DNA of 64,000 bases from positions 1 through 64,000 of the forward strand of contig CAIQHF010000019.1 in NCBI GenBank assembly GCA_903871605.1. Direction: 5' to 3'. Shown piece by piece: positions 14,521 through 30,845 of the stretch. Position 1 is the first letter of the stretch. Each line of letters opens with the position of its first letter. The notes under the pieces were generated by a model that searched no databases, was not told the origin of the DNA, and was given only the letters and a program-made list of their open reading frames with translations. The translations under genes were made by a program, and so were the position numbers. This DNA is from an uncultured Sphingomonadaceae bacterium (lineage in GTDB: Bacteria > Pseudomonadota > Alphaproteobacteria > Sphingomonadales > Sphingomonadaceae).

Positions 14521-15450
14521 TTACGCCTTGACGCCGGCGGCGGCGGCCACTTCGGCGGCGAAGTCGCTGGTCTCGCGCTCGATGCCTTCGCCAAGCTGGA
14601 AGCGGACATAGTCCTTGAGCACGATCGACGTGCCGGCATCCTTGGCGGCCTTGGCGACGACGTCCTGCACGGGCGTCTTGTTGTCCATGACGAAGAGTTG
14701 CGACAGCAGCGCCGCCTCCTTCTTGAACTTGGCGACCGCACCCTCGACCATCTTCTCGATGATGTTCTCGGGCTTGCCGCTCTCGGCCGCCTTCTCGCGC
14801 GCGATCGCGCGCTCGCGCTCGACCGTGTCGGCGTCGAGATGGTCGGCGTGGAGCGCCTGCGGGAAGGACGCCGCGATGTGCATCGCGATCTGCTTGCCGA
14901 GCGGCTCGAGCACGTCGATGCCGGCGTCCGACTCGAGCGCGACGAGCACGCCGATCTTGCCCATGCCGGGTGCGATCTGGTTGTGGACATAGGGCACGAC
15001 CGCGCCGTTCGAGACGGTCAGCACGCGCACGCGGCGCAGCGTCTGGTTCTCGCCGATCGTCGCGATATTCGCGGTGAGCGCGTCGCCCACGGTGCCGCCG
15101 CCCGGATAGGACGCGGCGCGCAGCGCCTCGATATCGTCGCCGGTCTCGAGCGCGATACCCGACACCGTCTTCACGAACGCCTGGAACTGGTCGTTCTTGG
15201 CGACGAAATCGGTCTCGGAGTTGACCTCGACCGCGGCACCCTTGGTGCCCGCGACCGCGACGCCGACCAGACCCTCGGCCGCGGTGCGGCTCGACTTCTT
15301 GGCAGCGGCGGCGAGGCCCTTGGAGCGCAGCCAGTCGACCGCGGCTTCCATGTCGCCGTTGGTCTCGCTCAGCGCCTTCTTGCAATCCATCATGCCGGCG
15401 CCCGAGCGCTCGCGCAGGTCCTTGACGGTGGCTGCGGTGATCTCCGCCAT
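14521..15450 (-). CDS. tsf: Elongation factor Ts
   Basis: Nucleotide exchange factor for EF-Tu. The 309-residue protein has the N-terminal UBA-like module ([19 protein letters not shown]) and the core signature with SETDFVAKN, the region contacting EF-Tu. It lies downstream of rpsB, with a palindromic repeat between them. An AAGGAT lies 7 bases before the ATG. The strong terminator at 14450-14504 ends the unit. Confidence 0.97.
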
Positions 15451-15478
15451 ATCTCGATCCTTTCAGTCTAGAAGCGCG

Positions 15479-15543
15479 CGCCCCCGCGAAAGCGGGGGCC
15501 CAGTCGATCGGTGCGGACTGGGCTCCCGCCTACGCGGGAGCAC
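15479..15543. repeat. REPIN-like element, CCCCCGCGAAAGCGGGGG family
   Basis: The left arm CCCCCGCGAAAGCGGGGGCC and right arm GGGCTCCCGCCTACGCGGG flank a 20-base spacer. It lies between rpsB and tsf, where such elements may set the ratio of the two mRNAs (inference). It is the same type as the three copies behind icd. Confidence 0.88.
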
Positions 15544-15555
15544 GCGACAATATTG

Positions 15556-16308
15556 TTACGCGAGTGCGGCTTCGACCGGCGGCTCGTCCGACGCGCCGAA
15601 ATCGGCTCCCGACTGGACGCGCGCGTTCTGGTTGCCCTTGGTCGCGGCCTCGGCGATCAGGTCGCAATAGAGGCGGATCGCGCGGGATGCGTCGTCGTTC
15701 GCCGGGATCGGGAAGGCGATGCCGTCGGGCGAGACGTTCGAATCGAGGATCGCGACGACCGGGATGCCGAGCGTGTTGGCTTCCTTGATCGCGAGCTCTT
15801 CCTTGTTGGCGTCGATCACGAACATCACGTCGGGGATGCCGCCCATGTCGCGGATGCCGCCGAGCGACAGCTCGAACTTGTCGCGCTCGCGGGTGAGCTG
15901 GAGGACTTCCTTCTTGGTGAGGCCCTGCGTGTCGCCCGAAAGCTGCTCCTCGAGCGCCTTGAAGCGCTTGATCGAGCCCGAGATCGTCTTCCAGTTGGTG
16001 AGCATGCCGCCCAGCCAGCGATGGTTGACATAATGCTGGCCCGACTGGCGCGCGGCCTCGGCGATCGGCTCCTGCGCCTGGCGCTTGGTGCCGACGAACA
16101 GGACCTTGCCGCCCGACTGGACGGTCTGGTTCACGAAGTCGAGCGCGCGCGTCATCAGCGGCACGGTCTGCGACAGGTCGATGATGTGGACGCCGTTGCG
16201 GTCGCCGAAGATGTAGGGCTTCATCTTCGGGTTCCAGCGGTGGGTCTGGTGGCCGAAGTGCGCGCCGACGTCGAGCAATTGGTGCATGGAAACGGACGGT
16301 GCCGCCAT
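15556..16308 (-). CDS. rpsB: 30S ribosomal protein S2
   Basis: The 250-residue S2 begins [21 protein letters not shown]. It has [31 protein letters not shown] and the signature [19 protein letters not shown] at 16306-16308 is preceded by AAGGAGATACTCTC, an excellent RBS, so the longer in-frame extension upstream is rejected. It is the first gene of rpsB-tsf, divergent from the LexA-type promoter. Confidence 0.97.
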
Positions 16309-16408
16309 GAGAGTATCTCCTTCCGGTTGAACCTCTGCAGGACAGTGACCGAAACCATCGAGATGGCCGCGGCACCGGTATGTGCGCCCTGCATGTGGAA
16401 TGCGGCGG

Positions 16409-16437
16409 CCCTTACCGAGAGCGGTCCGGAAAAGCAA
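16409..16437 (-). promoter_or_regulatory. Candidate rpsB promoter
   Basis: Read leftward, TTGCTT (16432-16437), a 17-base spacer and TAAGGG (16409-16414) lie about 100 bases before the rpsB ATG. The spacing is ideal, but the -10 match is weak. The roughly 90-base leader could host the S2 autoregulatory structure known in other bacteria; I could not fold it reliably. Confidence 0.35.
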
Positions 16438-16501
16438 CTCTCGGCGATGTCTTGTTACAGTTCATCGCGCGCAAACCCTCGACTGGTCCGAAATGGGACG
16501 C

Positions 16502-16531
16502 TTGACAAGGAACATATGGAGAACATATGGA
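16502..16531 (+). promoter_or_regulatory. LexA-type operator inside a sigma-70 promoter
   Basis: A perfect TTGACA (-35, 16502-16507) is followed by GAAC-N7-GAAC (16510-16524), the alphaproteobacterial LexA box, and by ATATGG/TATGGA (16525-16531) as the -10. The operator fills the -35/-10 spacer, so a bound repressor would block polymerase. A third GAAC at 16530-16533 follows at a different spacing. The same box is found at recA (30831-30845). It points rightward to the small gene at 16599. Confidence 0.75.
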
Positions 16532-16598
16532 ACTGTCAGTGCGGCAAGCCGTTCCTACCTGTCGAGAAACGGGTGGAACCGTTTCGGGAGATAGCATC

Positions 16599-16823
16599 AT
16601 GGTTCATGTTCTTGCGTCGATCGGCTTTTCCCTCGTGGCGCTCGCCACCTTGTCGTTCATCGCGCTGATGCTCGCCGCATCGCGCGACTCGATCATACTG
16701 GCATTGGGCGTGGGTCGGGCGCCGGTGACGCATAGGCCGCGACACCCGGTTCGGATCAGGACGGCAGGTCGGTGGCAGGCGGTGCAGCCGGCGTCCGCGC
16801 AGCCGCAGCGCGCTGCCGCTTGA
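16599..16823 (+). CDS. Small single-pass membrane protein, probably SOS-induced
   Basis: A 74-residue protein of unknown function. Residues ~6-28 form one strong membrane helix (SIGFSLVALATLSFIALML), followed by a basic, Ala/Gln-rich tail. The start has GGGAG eight bases upstream. The gene is about 70 bases downstream of a TTGACA promoter with an embedded LexA box, so it is probably repressed by LexA. Small LexA-controlled membrane proteins include the Caulobacter division inhibitor SidA; a similar job is plausible but not shown by sequence. Its last 68 bases overlap the convergent pssA gene, so the tail could be partly constrained by pssA. Confidence 0.6.
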   Translation: MVHVLASIGFSLVALATLSFIALMLAASRDSIILALGVGRAPVTHRPRHPVRIRTAGRWQAVQPASAQPQRAAA

Positions 16824-17577
16824 TCCTGGCATAAGACCGGGCGCTGAACGGGATGGCGCCCAGATAGCCCAGGGTGAACAGCGACAATGTCGGCCAGGGC
16901 GCGCTGATCAACGCCCCGCCGGCGAGCGCGATCACCGCGATCGCTTCGAACCGCACGCCGCGGCGGAGGCGCAGCGAGCCCCAGCCGAAGGTCGCGACGC
17001 TCGACACCATCAGGATCGCCGCCATCGCCGTCCACGGTGCCACGATATAGGCCGAGCGGAAGATCGCGACCTGCTGGCCGAACGCCAACCAGATATAGAG
17101 CGGCAGCATCACCAGCCCCGCCCCCGCAGGCGCGGGAATGCCGGTGAAGAAGCCCGCCGCCTTGCGCGGCTGCTCGGTGGCATCGATCTGGGCGTTGAAA
17201 CGCGCCAGCCGCAACGCGCAGCAGACCGCATGGCTGAGCGCGATCGTCCAGCCGAACTGCGGCATATATTGAAGCGACCAGAGATACATCACCACCGCAG
17301 GCGAGACGCCGAAGGCGATCACGTCGGACAGCGAATCGAGCTCTGCGCCGAATCGGCTCTCGCCCTTGAGCAAACGCGCGATCCGCCCGTCGAGCCCGTC
17401 GAGCACCGCCGCCAGGATGATCGTGCCGACCGCCAGCTCCCATTGCTCGGCGATCGCGAAGCGCACCGCGGAGAGGCCGAAGCACAGCGCGAGCGCGGTC
17501 ACCGCATTGGGCGCGACCGCGCGGAGCGGAATGCCGCGCCGGGGGCGGTCGCGAAGGCGCGGGTTCAGGCGTGGCAT
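16756..17577 (-). CDS. pssA: CDP-diacylglycerol--serine O-phosphatidyltransferase
   Basis: Membrane CDP-alcohol phosphatidyltransferase making phosphatidylserine. The full motif DG-x2-AR-x8-G-x3-D-x3-D is present, with D63, G64, A67, R68, G77, D81 and D85. Several membrane helices follow (273 residues). The precursor comes from CdsA, and the product goes to Psd encoded just upstream on the same strand. The ATG is preceded by GGGGA at 8 bases, and this GGGGA is the terminal part of the palindromic repeat at 17584-17657. The 3' end overlaps the small SOS-type gene. Confidence 0.93.
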   Translation of the reverse strand: MPRLNPRLRDRPRRGIPLRAVAPNAVTALALCFGLSAVRFAIAEQWELAVGTIILAAVLDGLDGRIARLLKGESRFGAELDSLSDVIAFGVSPAVVMYLWSLQYMPQFGWTIALSHAVCCALRLARFNAQIDATEQPRKAAGFFTGIPAPAGAGLVMLPLYIWLAFGQQVAIFRSAYIVAPWTAMAAILMVSSVATFGWGSLRLRRGVRFEAIAVIALAGGALISAPWPTLSLFTLGYLGAIPFSARSYARIKRQRAAAARTPAAPPATDLPS

Positions 17578-17583
17578 GGTTCA

Positions 17584-17657
17584 GTTCCCCGGCGAAAGCC
17601 GGGGTCCAGAGTTGAGAGGCGCTGCGTATGAAGCTCTGGGCCCCGGCTTTCGCCAGC
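17584..17657. repeat. REPIN-like palindromic element between psd and pssA; supplies an RBS
   Basis: The left arm GTTCCCCGGCGAAAGCC and the right arm GGCCCCGGCTTTCGCC (its outermost bases are degraded to AGCGAC) flank a 30-base spacer. On the lower strand its end reads CCGGGGAAC and provides the Shine-Dalgarno sequence of pssA. Confidence 0.88.
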
Positions 17658-17677
17658 GACCCAAGGATAAGCCGCTT

Positions 17678-18412
17678 TCACTGCGCGACGCCGTCGATCC
17701 GCTCGTCGCGACCGGCGACCGCGAGCACCGTCTCGCCCGCGATCGTGCGCTGGCCGAGCAGCACCTGCGGGCTGGTGCCGGCGGGTAGATAGACGTCGAC
17801 CCGGCTGCCGAAGCGGATCAGCCCGACGCGCTGCCCCGCCGCGATGATATCGCCCGGCTTGACGAACGGCACGATCCGCCTGGCGACCAGACCCGCGATT
17901 TGCGTGAAGCCGATCTTCATGCCGTGCCCGTCCTCGACGAGGATGTGCTGGCGCTCATTTTCCTCGCTCGCCTTGTCGAGATCGGCGTTGAGGAACTTGC
18001 CCGAAATATAGACGACGCGGCTGATCGTCCCGCCGATCGGCGAGCGGTTGATGTGGACGTCGAACACCGACATGAAGATCGAGACGCGCGTCACCGGATC
18101 GGGGGCGAGCGCGCCCTCGCCGATCAGCTCGCGCGGCGGCGGCACCTGGACGATCAGCGTGACCAGGCCATCGGCGGGCGCGACGATCATACCGGGTCCG
18201 CGCGGCGTGGTGCGGATCGGATCGCGGAAGAACAGCAGCACCCATGCGGTGATCGCCACCCCCAGCCAGCCGAACAGCTCGGGGAGGAAGAGGAAGAACA
18301 GCAGCGTGATCCCGGCCGCGATCGCGGCGAACTTATAGCCTTCGGGATGCACCGCGGGAAAGCGCCACTTGATCGTCGTGGTGCCGATGTCGGGTTTTTC
18401 GAGCGAGGTCAT
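17678..18412 (-). CDS. psd: Phosphatidylserine decarboxylase proenzyme
   Basis: Converts phosphatidylserine to phosphatidylethanolamine and needs self-cleavage to create its pyruvoyl group. The cleavage site lies in [12 protein letters not shown], with the Ser of FGS becoming pyruvoyl, typical of the short alphaproteobacterial type (244 residues). Two hydrophobic segments near residues 28-62 anchor it. FDVHINRSP is the conserved active-site block. Transcribed toward pssA, about 100 bases away with a palindrome between. Confidence 0.94.
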
Positions 18413-29659: not shown

Positions 29660-30745
29660 TCAGATGTCGTCGCCCTCTTCCGGCCCCGCCATCAGCGCCT
29701 CGGAGACCGCGTCGGTCTTGGCGCGGATCGCCTTTTCGAGCTTGTCGGCGAGCTCGGGATTGGCCTTGAGGAAGGCCTTCGAATTCTCGCGCCCCTGCCC
29801 GATCCGCACCGAATCATAGGAGAACCAGGCGCCCGACTTCTCGACGATCCCGGCTTTCACCCCGAGATCGAGGATTTCGCCGATCTTGGACACGCCCTCG
29901 CCATACATGATGTCGAACTCGACCTGCTTGAACGGCGGTGCGACCTTGTTCTTGACCACCTTCACGCGCGTGGCGTTGCCGACGATCTCATCGCGATCCT
30001 TGATCTGGCCGGTGCGGCGGATGTCGAGGCGGACCGAGGCGTAGAATTTGAGCGCGTTGCCGCCCGTCGTTGTCTCGGGGTTGCCGTACATCACGCCGAT
30101 CTTCATGCGCAGCTGGTTGATGAAGATCACCATGCAGCGCGAGCGGCTGATCGAGCCGGTGAGCTTGCGCAAGCTCTGCGACATCAGCCGCGCCTGCAGC
30201 CCGACATGGCTGTCGCCCATCTCGCCCTCGATCTCGGCGCGCGGCACGAGCGCCGCGACCGAATCGACCACCAGCACGTCGATCGCGTTCGAGCGGACCA
30301 GCGTGTCGACGATTTCGAGCGCCTGCTCGCCGGTATCCGGCTGCGACACGATCAGCTCGTCGATGTTGACGCCGAGCTTCTTGGCATAGACCGGGTCGAG
30401 CGCATGCTCGGCATCGACGAACGCCGCGGCGCCGCCGGTCTTCTGTGCCTCGGCGATGACGTGGAGCGCGAGCGTCGTCTTGCCCGAGCTTTCCGGGCCG
30501 TAAATCTCGATCACGCGGCCGCGCGGCAGCCCGCCGACGCCCAGCGCGATGTCGAGCCCGAGCGAGCCGGTCGGGATCACCTCGACCTGCATCGCTTCCT
30601 TGGAGCCCAGCCGCATCGCCGAGCCCTTGCCGAACGCGCGGTCGATCTGTGCGAGCGCCGCGTCGAGCGCCTTCTGCCTGTCGGTCGTCGCCAGCTTGTC
30701 GATCATGTCCGAATTTGCCCCGATAACCTTGAGTGATGCGGCCAT
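29660..30745 (-). CDS. recA: Recombinase RecA
   Basis: ATP-dependent strand-exchange protein and LexA co-protease. The 361-residue sequence has Walker [13 protein letters not shown], the [16 protein letters not shown] segment, [10 protein letters not shown]-like Walker B ([17 protein letters not shown]), loop L1/L2 region with [10 protein letters not shown] and NPETTTGG, and the acidic C-terminus GPEEGDDI. A LexA box lies about 86 bases upstream (30831-30845). The gene follows a stand-alone receiver gene and cckA on the same strand. Confidence 0.98.
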
Positions 30746-30807: not shown

Positions 30808-30845
30808 TGCGTACCATCTTCGTTCCCGGAGAACAAGAGTGGAAC
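30808..30845 (-). promoter_or_regulatory. LexA box and candidate promoter of recA
   Basis: On the lower strand the sequence is GTTC-CACTCTT-GTTC (30831-30845), the exact GTTC-N7-GTTC box of alphaproteobacterial LexA. The box overlaps a possible -35, TTGTTC (30831-30836), with TACGCA (30808-30813) 17 bases further as the -10. The operator begins three bases after the upstream receiver gene's stop codon. Autoregulated SOS induction of recA is expected. Confidence 0.85.

Follow-up and report, generated by a model that had tools for sequence, protein, structure and literature searches.

A conserved small gene behind a LexA-type box beside pssA in sphingomonads, a candidate SOS-controlled membrane effector

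Does the LexA-type box between rpsB and pssA of this sphingomonad control a real gene, and what might the product of that gene do? The window, that is, the whole stretch of 64,000 nucleotides that was analysed, had been read from its letters as carrying here an SOS-type promoter that drives a small membrane protein, a candidate division inhibitor. The elements named in this sequence-only reading were all located: a -35-like TTGACA (16502..16507, + strand), a LexA-type box GAAC-N7-GAAC with the sequence GAACATATGGAGAAC (16510..16524, +), a ribosome-binding site GGGAGA (16586..16591, +), and an ORF for a single-span membrane protein of 74 residues (16599..16823, +; ATG at 16599, stop codon at 16821-16823). 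The ORF sits between rpsB, a divergent neighbour (15559..16308, -), and the convergent pssA, encoding phosphatidylserine synthase (16756..17577, -), which overlaps it by 68 nt (16756-16823). The reading was thus right about the elements and the ORF, but it had not noticed that pssA overlaps the ORF convergently, nor the topology predicted for the protein, nor its C-terminal Ala-Ala. A longer version of 98 residues starting at ATG 16527 was rejected, since this start lies inside the promoter and was present only in the window's locus among nine compared.

The -35 element of the small gene is perfect and the -10 element is weak. Among family promoters, TTGAC was found 3-7 nt ahead of the box in 39 of 44. 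A consensus promoter scan returned no plus-strand promoter at the small gene and only one on the minus strand. The box before a small membrane-protein gene is strongly supported by the conservation described below; the weak -10 and the outcome of the scan speak against the proposed promoter. The minus-strand promoter-like pair (16539-16511) overlaps the LexA-type box, so that LexA might affect the rpsB side, or an antisense RNA, as well. A third GAAC lies 5 nt past the box (16530..16533, +), and several relatives carry an extra GAAC 3-6 nt past their own box. Some family promoters contain two or three close GAAC-N7-GAAC boxes (loci L059, L061, L071, L072, L075, L091, L029, L030, and L034).

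We examined how far the box itself can be trusted. Two exact copies occur in the window against 1.15 expected, and the box taken alone is therefore at about chance level there. The second copy (30831..30845, +) lies 85 nt upstream of recA (29660-30745, -), which confirmed the statement that the box is of the same class as that at recA. GAAC-N7-GAAC, or GTTC-N7-GTTC, is the form published for Caulobacter (PMC12700426), and the small gene carries this mark of the alphaproteobacterial LexA regulon in its promoter. In the whole genome, 72 exact boxes were counted against 39 matches to the reversed motif. Thirty of the 72 loci were read, with repair genes named by eye, and several of these 30 precede genes resembling recA, uvrA, two imuA, and other repair genes. 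The contigs with the two imuA-like genes behind LexA-type boxes (L241 and L245, genome G000) are also those with two weaker DnaE matches.

The sequence-only reading had proposed conservation of the short gene together with its box between rpsB and pssA as a check. The DNA upstream of rpsB was covered in 57 of 59 genomes sampled from the own family, meaning the window's family in the taxonomy used (93 rpsB places, of which 88 were fetched; that of G021 was at the edge of a contig, and no rpsB match was obtained in G008). pssA was detected adjoining rpsB in 45 of these 57 genomes. The exact box was present between the two genes in 43 of the 45 linked genomes, and the remaining two (G010 and G032) had a box with one mismatch. 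Two controls were counted: the reversed motif, present in 3 of the 45, and the box on the opposite strand, present in 1 of the 45. Counting two genomes in which pssA was undetected (G015 and G033), the exact box was found in 45 of the 57 own-family rpsB regions. All 45 box-bearing regions contained an ORF of 70-111 residues with a helix near its start, whereas 1 of 1800 shuffled segments did. Read on the opposite strand, 17 of the 45 segments passed this ORF-plus-helix filter, which we put down to pssA being itself a membrane protein. The proposed check was thus passed for both box and frame.

The coding status of the ORF was also supported by its substitutions: over 9 overlapping pairs, differences at codon positions 1, 2, and 3 numbered 110, 69, and 164. 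We concluded that the small ORF is a real gene and is widespread in the family. It is absent from the family libraries searched. Over 46 aligned members (the unlinked ORFs L065 and L096 as well as L062 were left out of this alignment and of the charge count, but kept in the 49-row list of endings), no Pfam family and no PHROG family matched. The only NCBIfam match, to a FecD permease in 1 of 46 members (E 0.0054), was taken as chance and this identity was rejected, and a profile search of solved structures gave weak matches only (E 0.22 or worse). The mean column identity of the alignment was 21%, and the C-terminal Ala was the only column above 90%. The protein evolves fast, as would be expected of a membrane peptide under loose constraint no less than of an inhibitor specific to one partner.

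For the anatomy of the protein, AlphaFold2 contributed just two helices. The first, at residues 2-27 (codons 16602..16679, +), agrees with the claim of one membrane helix; the mean pLDDT was 95-98 over residues 1-30, and no Lys or Arg precedes its core. A short second helix spans residues 29-36 (16683..16706, +), and an Arg/Pro-rich tail modelled with low confidence (pLDDT 62-67) follows (16707..16820, +). Lys and Arg were lacking before the hydrophobic core in 46 of 46 proteins, and a mean of 10.1 followed it. The positively charged side of a membrane protein generally faces the cytoplasm (the positive-inside rule), and the N-terminus is therefore predicted to lie outside and the basic tail in the cytoplasm; the side of the C-terminus is assigned by charge count alone.

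Which neighbour does the gene keep? A search for pssA in 16 own-family genomes gave matches in 13, two of which (G048 and G053) had already been counted, leaving 11 others. In six of the 11 (G012, G014, G021, G029, G031, and G047), where pssA was not seen by rpsB, an exact box lay by pssA together with a convergent helix ORF. Another (G058) had a one-mismatch box and an ORF by pssA, G039 a box with an ORF of only 35 residues, and G016 a box without an ORF; in G049, neither box nor ORF was found. In G033, box and ORF adjoin rpsB, away from pssA. These results indicated that the small gene mostly goes with pssA, and rpsB as a fixed partner was rejected for most genomes, with G033 as the exception. 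In genome G015 (locus L090), no pssA match was obtained at the threshold used, and a psd-like frame adjoins the gene instead. Beyond pssA, the psd-like frame, and rpsB, no linked partner genes were seen.

Outside the family, 30 pssA loci were considered (26 from other families of the order and 4 from elsewhere in the class; L268 and L297 were cut short and L288 was left out), and no box with such an ORF was found beside pssA in the 27 usable ones. The single exact box among them was 872 nt away (G082), and eight loci had a helix ORF without a box, which looks by eye like the terminal part of a transporter gene. Within the family, a profile built from the 46 members matched 283 of 397 genomes and 83 of 96 genera, counts that include the 46 members and were not individually confirmed. 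The other 114 genomes had no profile match, and at least four of them (G012, G014, G029, and G047) carry the gene. In 30 further genera, picked because the family profile matched them, the box was present in 28 and the gene was convergent with pssA in 28; one match (L308 in G111) looks false. A phage or plasmid origin was rejected, as no match was obtained in viral contigs or plasmids.

The most conserved part of the protein is its end, which in the window reads Ala-Ala-Ala-stop (16812..16823, +). Ala-Ala endings were found in 39 of 46 aligned proteins, a count that comes from the list of 49 including three doubtful rows, and in 29 of 30 of the further-genera set, which is not wholly independent because the profile itself contains C-terminal columns. 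Among longer ORFs, the same ending occurred in 7 of 112 at other loci of the genome and in 0 of 48 in the window. The small ORF overlaps the 3' end of pssA by 17-185 nt in the same phase in all 45 linked genomes, and pssA could therefore have dictated the ending.

The codons used by pssA argued otherwise. Opposite the small stop codon, the pssA Arg was encoded by AGG in 26 of 26 cases, although AG-type codons account for 3.2% of the Arg codons in pssA; this count, unlike the CGG count that follows, is partly conditional on aligning at the stop codon. At the next pssA Arg, 33 of 38 codons were CGG and none was CGC, against backgrounds of 30% and 50%, and CGC at this second site would change the penultimate Ala to Gly. 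Two codons further, CGC was again the main Arg codon (24 of 37). With one genome per genus, the counts were 19 of 19 for AGG and 28 of 31 for CGG. Among pssA genes from other families, 18 had this column aligned; the codon was AAG or AAA in 7, CGG or CGC in 2, and AGG in none. Furthermore, copies that do not overlap pssA keep the ending (FRLAA in G058 and ELALAA in G135). In G015, where no pssA was found, the protein ends in GLRAAA; the end of the psd-like frame lies 17 nt past the ORF, and the other antisense open frames that cross it are not gene-like by eye. Ala-Ala as a by-product of the overlap was rejected on the absence of CGC at the second site, its return two codons on, and the retention of the ending in non-overlapping copies. 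The skewed codon choice in pssA opposite the end of the small protein (CGG, never CGC) shows that this C-terminus is under selection, and the AGG and CGG codons of pssA look fixed by the stop codon and the penultimate Ala of the opposite-strand gene. The overlap is apparently a clean case in which the codons of one gene are set by the stop and C-terminus of another.

As to what such an end may be for, two C-terminal alanines are described as a ClpXP degron in two Caulobacter proteins, CdnL (PMC10769358) and CtrA (PMC4433202), and replacing the alanines with aspartate is described as stabilising each of them. The small protein shares this feature of ClpXP substrates, and its Ala-Ala, conserved in the alignment and in the codon choice, is probably a degradation tag of the ClpXP type.

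Summarizing these results, we proposed that the small gene encodes a membrane effector that is under LexA control and rapidly cleared, most likely a brake on division that works like SidA or YneA, by analogy and not by established kinship; we give this proposal about an even chance. In undamaged cells, LexA sitting on the box just behind the -35 element would keep the gene off. Upon DNA damage, LexA would be cleaved and the small one-helix inner-membrane protein made, with its N-terminus outside and its Arg-rich tail in the cytoplasm as predicted from charge. The protein would then most likely restrain the late division complex (FtsW/FtsI/FtsN), in the manner of SidA, DidA, and YneA. ClpXP, the presumed protease, would read the C-terminal Ala-Ala, which is under selection, so that once LexA re-accumulates the protein would soon be gone and division would resume. 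LexA repression and damage induction are thus inferred from the box, and clearance by ClpXP from the likeness to known degrons. The division-brake role is proposed because small single-span damage-induced proteins acting on FtsW or FtsN are described in other bacteria (PMC4211646; PMC13396833). The quick degradation of SulA and YneA, the lack of SulA in 60 of 60 relatives, and the lack of a boxed SidA-like ORF ahead of dnaE in 20 of 20 own-family genomes also count in its favour. Counting against the proposal are the weak -10 and the genomes in which the gene is missing or reduced (G049, G016, and G039); against a division brake in particular, no sequence link to a division inhibitor was found, the protein is predicted to lie in the membrane the opposite way from SidA-like proteins, and the working LysM domain of YneA lies outside.

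We weighed three other roles for the gene. The protein may be a membrane accessory of another SOS task, such as anchoring a repair or protease factor, without any effect on division. The established features, namely the box, the helix, the basic tail, and the C-terminus, would all suit such a role, and a basic tail might contact nucleic acid or the head groups of lipids. Nothing specific speaks against it, although the only linked partner genes seen are pssA, the psd-like frame, and rpsB; we consider this explanation unlikely.

Alternatively, the gene may link DNA damage to phospholipid synthesis, either through an SOS transcript that runs into pssA and lowers PssA or through binding of the protein to PssA. 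The same-phase convergent overlap in every linked genome is what this would lead one to expect, as is the company of pssA and not of rpsB in six of the 11 genomes where the two part. Antisense transcription, however, leaves the selected C-terminus of the small protein unexplained, and the overlap alone would lock both genes together. Moreover, the helix and the Ala-Ala end are kept where there is no overlap (G058 and G135) or no pssA was found (G015), and in G033 the gene stays by rpsB, away from pssA. Such a link therefore seems to us rather improbable, a shade more so than an accessory role.

TisB and DinQ are the models for a third role. Peptides of this type are small, SOS-controlled, and located in the membrane, and an SOS peptide of this kind would depolarise the membrane and thereby slow metabolism or promote persistence. 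The LexA-type box, the small size, the single helix, and the fast evolution are all shared, and the minus-strand promoter-like site leaves room for an antisense RNA. On the other hand, the sphingomonad protein is longer (70-111 residues) and has a long basic tail and a conserved, selected Ala-Ala end; the structure of its leader was not above that of shuffles (z -0.86), and no Rfam match was obtained at 15400-18000. This role we regard as quite unlikely. Finally, a chance box before a non-coding ORF, to which the near-expected count in the window lends itself, has a negligible probability, as box and ORF are conserved together (43 of 45 against 3 of 45 for the reversed motif) and the end of the ORF is under selection.

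Because of their tiny size and their lack of kinship from one group to the next, SOS division inhibitors are hard to find. The present gene is a candidate that is conserved, its profile matching in 83 of 96 genera, and that has a possible off-switch in its last two residues. Among the matches listed from the open-licence literature, there was no sphingomonad SOS division inhibitor and no mention of the small gene. In Sphingopyxis granuli under anoxia, induction of lexA, recA, and two error-prone polymerase operons is described (PMC6472365). What is new here is a sphingomonad small gene with a LexA-type box that fits no Pfam or PHROG family and probably carries its own degradation tag. It is possible, though we put it at somewhat less than even, that a separate class of DNA-damage checkpoint effector arose in sphingomonads: LexA-controlled, N-out and tail-in, unrelated to SidA, SulA, or YneA, its lifetime tied to ClpXP by a genetically encoded Ala-Ala end of the ssrA kind, and its gene locked in place by the convergent pssA overlap. 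If so, division, and perhaps phospholipid synthesis too, would pause only while damage lasts.

We finally compared the small protein with known SOS and division inhibitors. Searches of Pfam, NCBIfam, PHROG, and solved structures gave no sequence link to any division inhibitor. A sphingomonad counterpart of SulA had been considered in the sequence-only reading; homology was not borne out, as the SulA profile PF03846 matched 0 of 60 relatives with the Escherichia coli control positive. SulA is described as SOS-controlled and quickly degraded by Lon (PMC13396833), traits resembling those proposed here, but it acts on FtsZ and its family is absent from all 60 relatives.

SidA of Caulobacter crescentus, the product of CCNA_02004 (PMC10769358), is described as a 29-residue, SOS-induced inner-membrane protein that acts on FtsW (PMC4211646). 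The small protein resembles it in LexA-type control, very small size, a single membrane helix, and origin in the same bacterial class, but differs in its length of 70-111 residues, its long basic tail, its C-terminal Ala-Ala, and the place of its gene beside pssA. In Caulobacter, sidA presumably precedes dnaE. None of 20 own-family genomes had an exact box ahead of dnaE, nor therefore a boxed SidA-like ORF; among 20 genomes from the rest of the order, two exact boxes turned up there, both in apparent coding sequence (40 of 60 genomes with dnaE were fetched). The sphingomonad gene thus lies by pssA and not in the SidA-type position ahead of dnaE. SidA-like candidates, that is, a LexA-type box with a single-helix ORF of 33-47 residues about 4 kb upstream of rpsB, were found in 5 of 40 other alphaproteobacterial families (L136, L141, L149, L158, and L161, of which L158 was read by eye). 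This sample comprised 40 of 110 class genomes with rpsB, all of about 2.5 Mb or more; one region, L133, was only 1.1 kb. An automatic dnaE motif gave no match in the 40 regions, and the identifications were made by eye: a dnaE-like frame comes directly after the ORF in L136, L149, and L161, dnaE-like text stands further on in L141, and in L158 the gene is assumed from position. The five are probably relatives of SidA, which suggests that SidA-type genes are distributed more widely than Caulobacter. They have 1-4 Lys or Arg before the helix and 0-1 after it, whereas the sphingomonad protein has none before (46 of 46) and its basic residues after; this contrast concerns the five SidA-like proteins and not SidA itself. 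Positional orthology with SidA, on the ground that both lie upstream of rpsB, was unsupported by strand, neighbour, or charge pattern.

DidA of Caulobacter is described as a protein of 71 residues with one helix that acts on FtsN independently of SOS, and its ORF, too, as overlapping the C-terminus of another annotated ORF (PMC4211646). It is thus similar in length and in its single helix, and set apart, by its description, from a gene with a conserved LexA-type box. YneA of Bacillus and SosA and ChiZ share with our proposal that they are SOS-induced small membrane division inhibitors, and YneA is described as rapidly degraded (PMC13396833). YneA, however, carries a LysM domain on the outside and is described as cleared by membrane proteases (PMC13396833), whereas the 46 sphingomonad proteins contain neither LysM nor any other outside domain recognised by Pfam and present instead a tail predicted to be cytoplasmic with an end of the ClpXP type.
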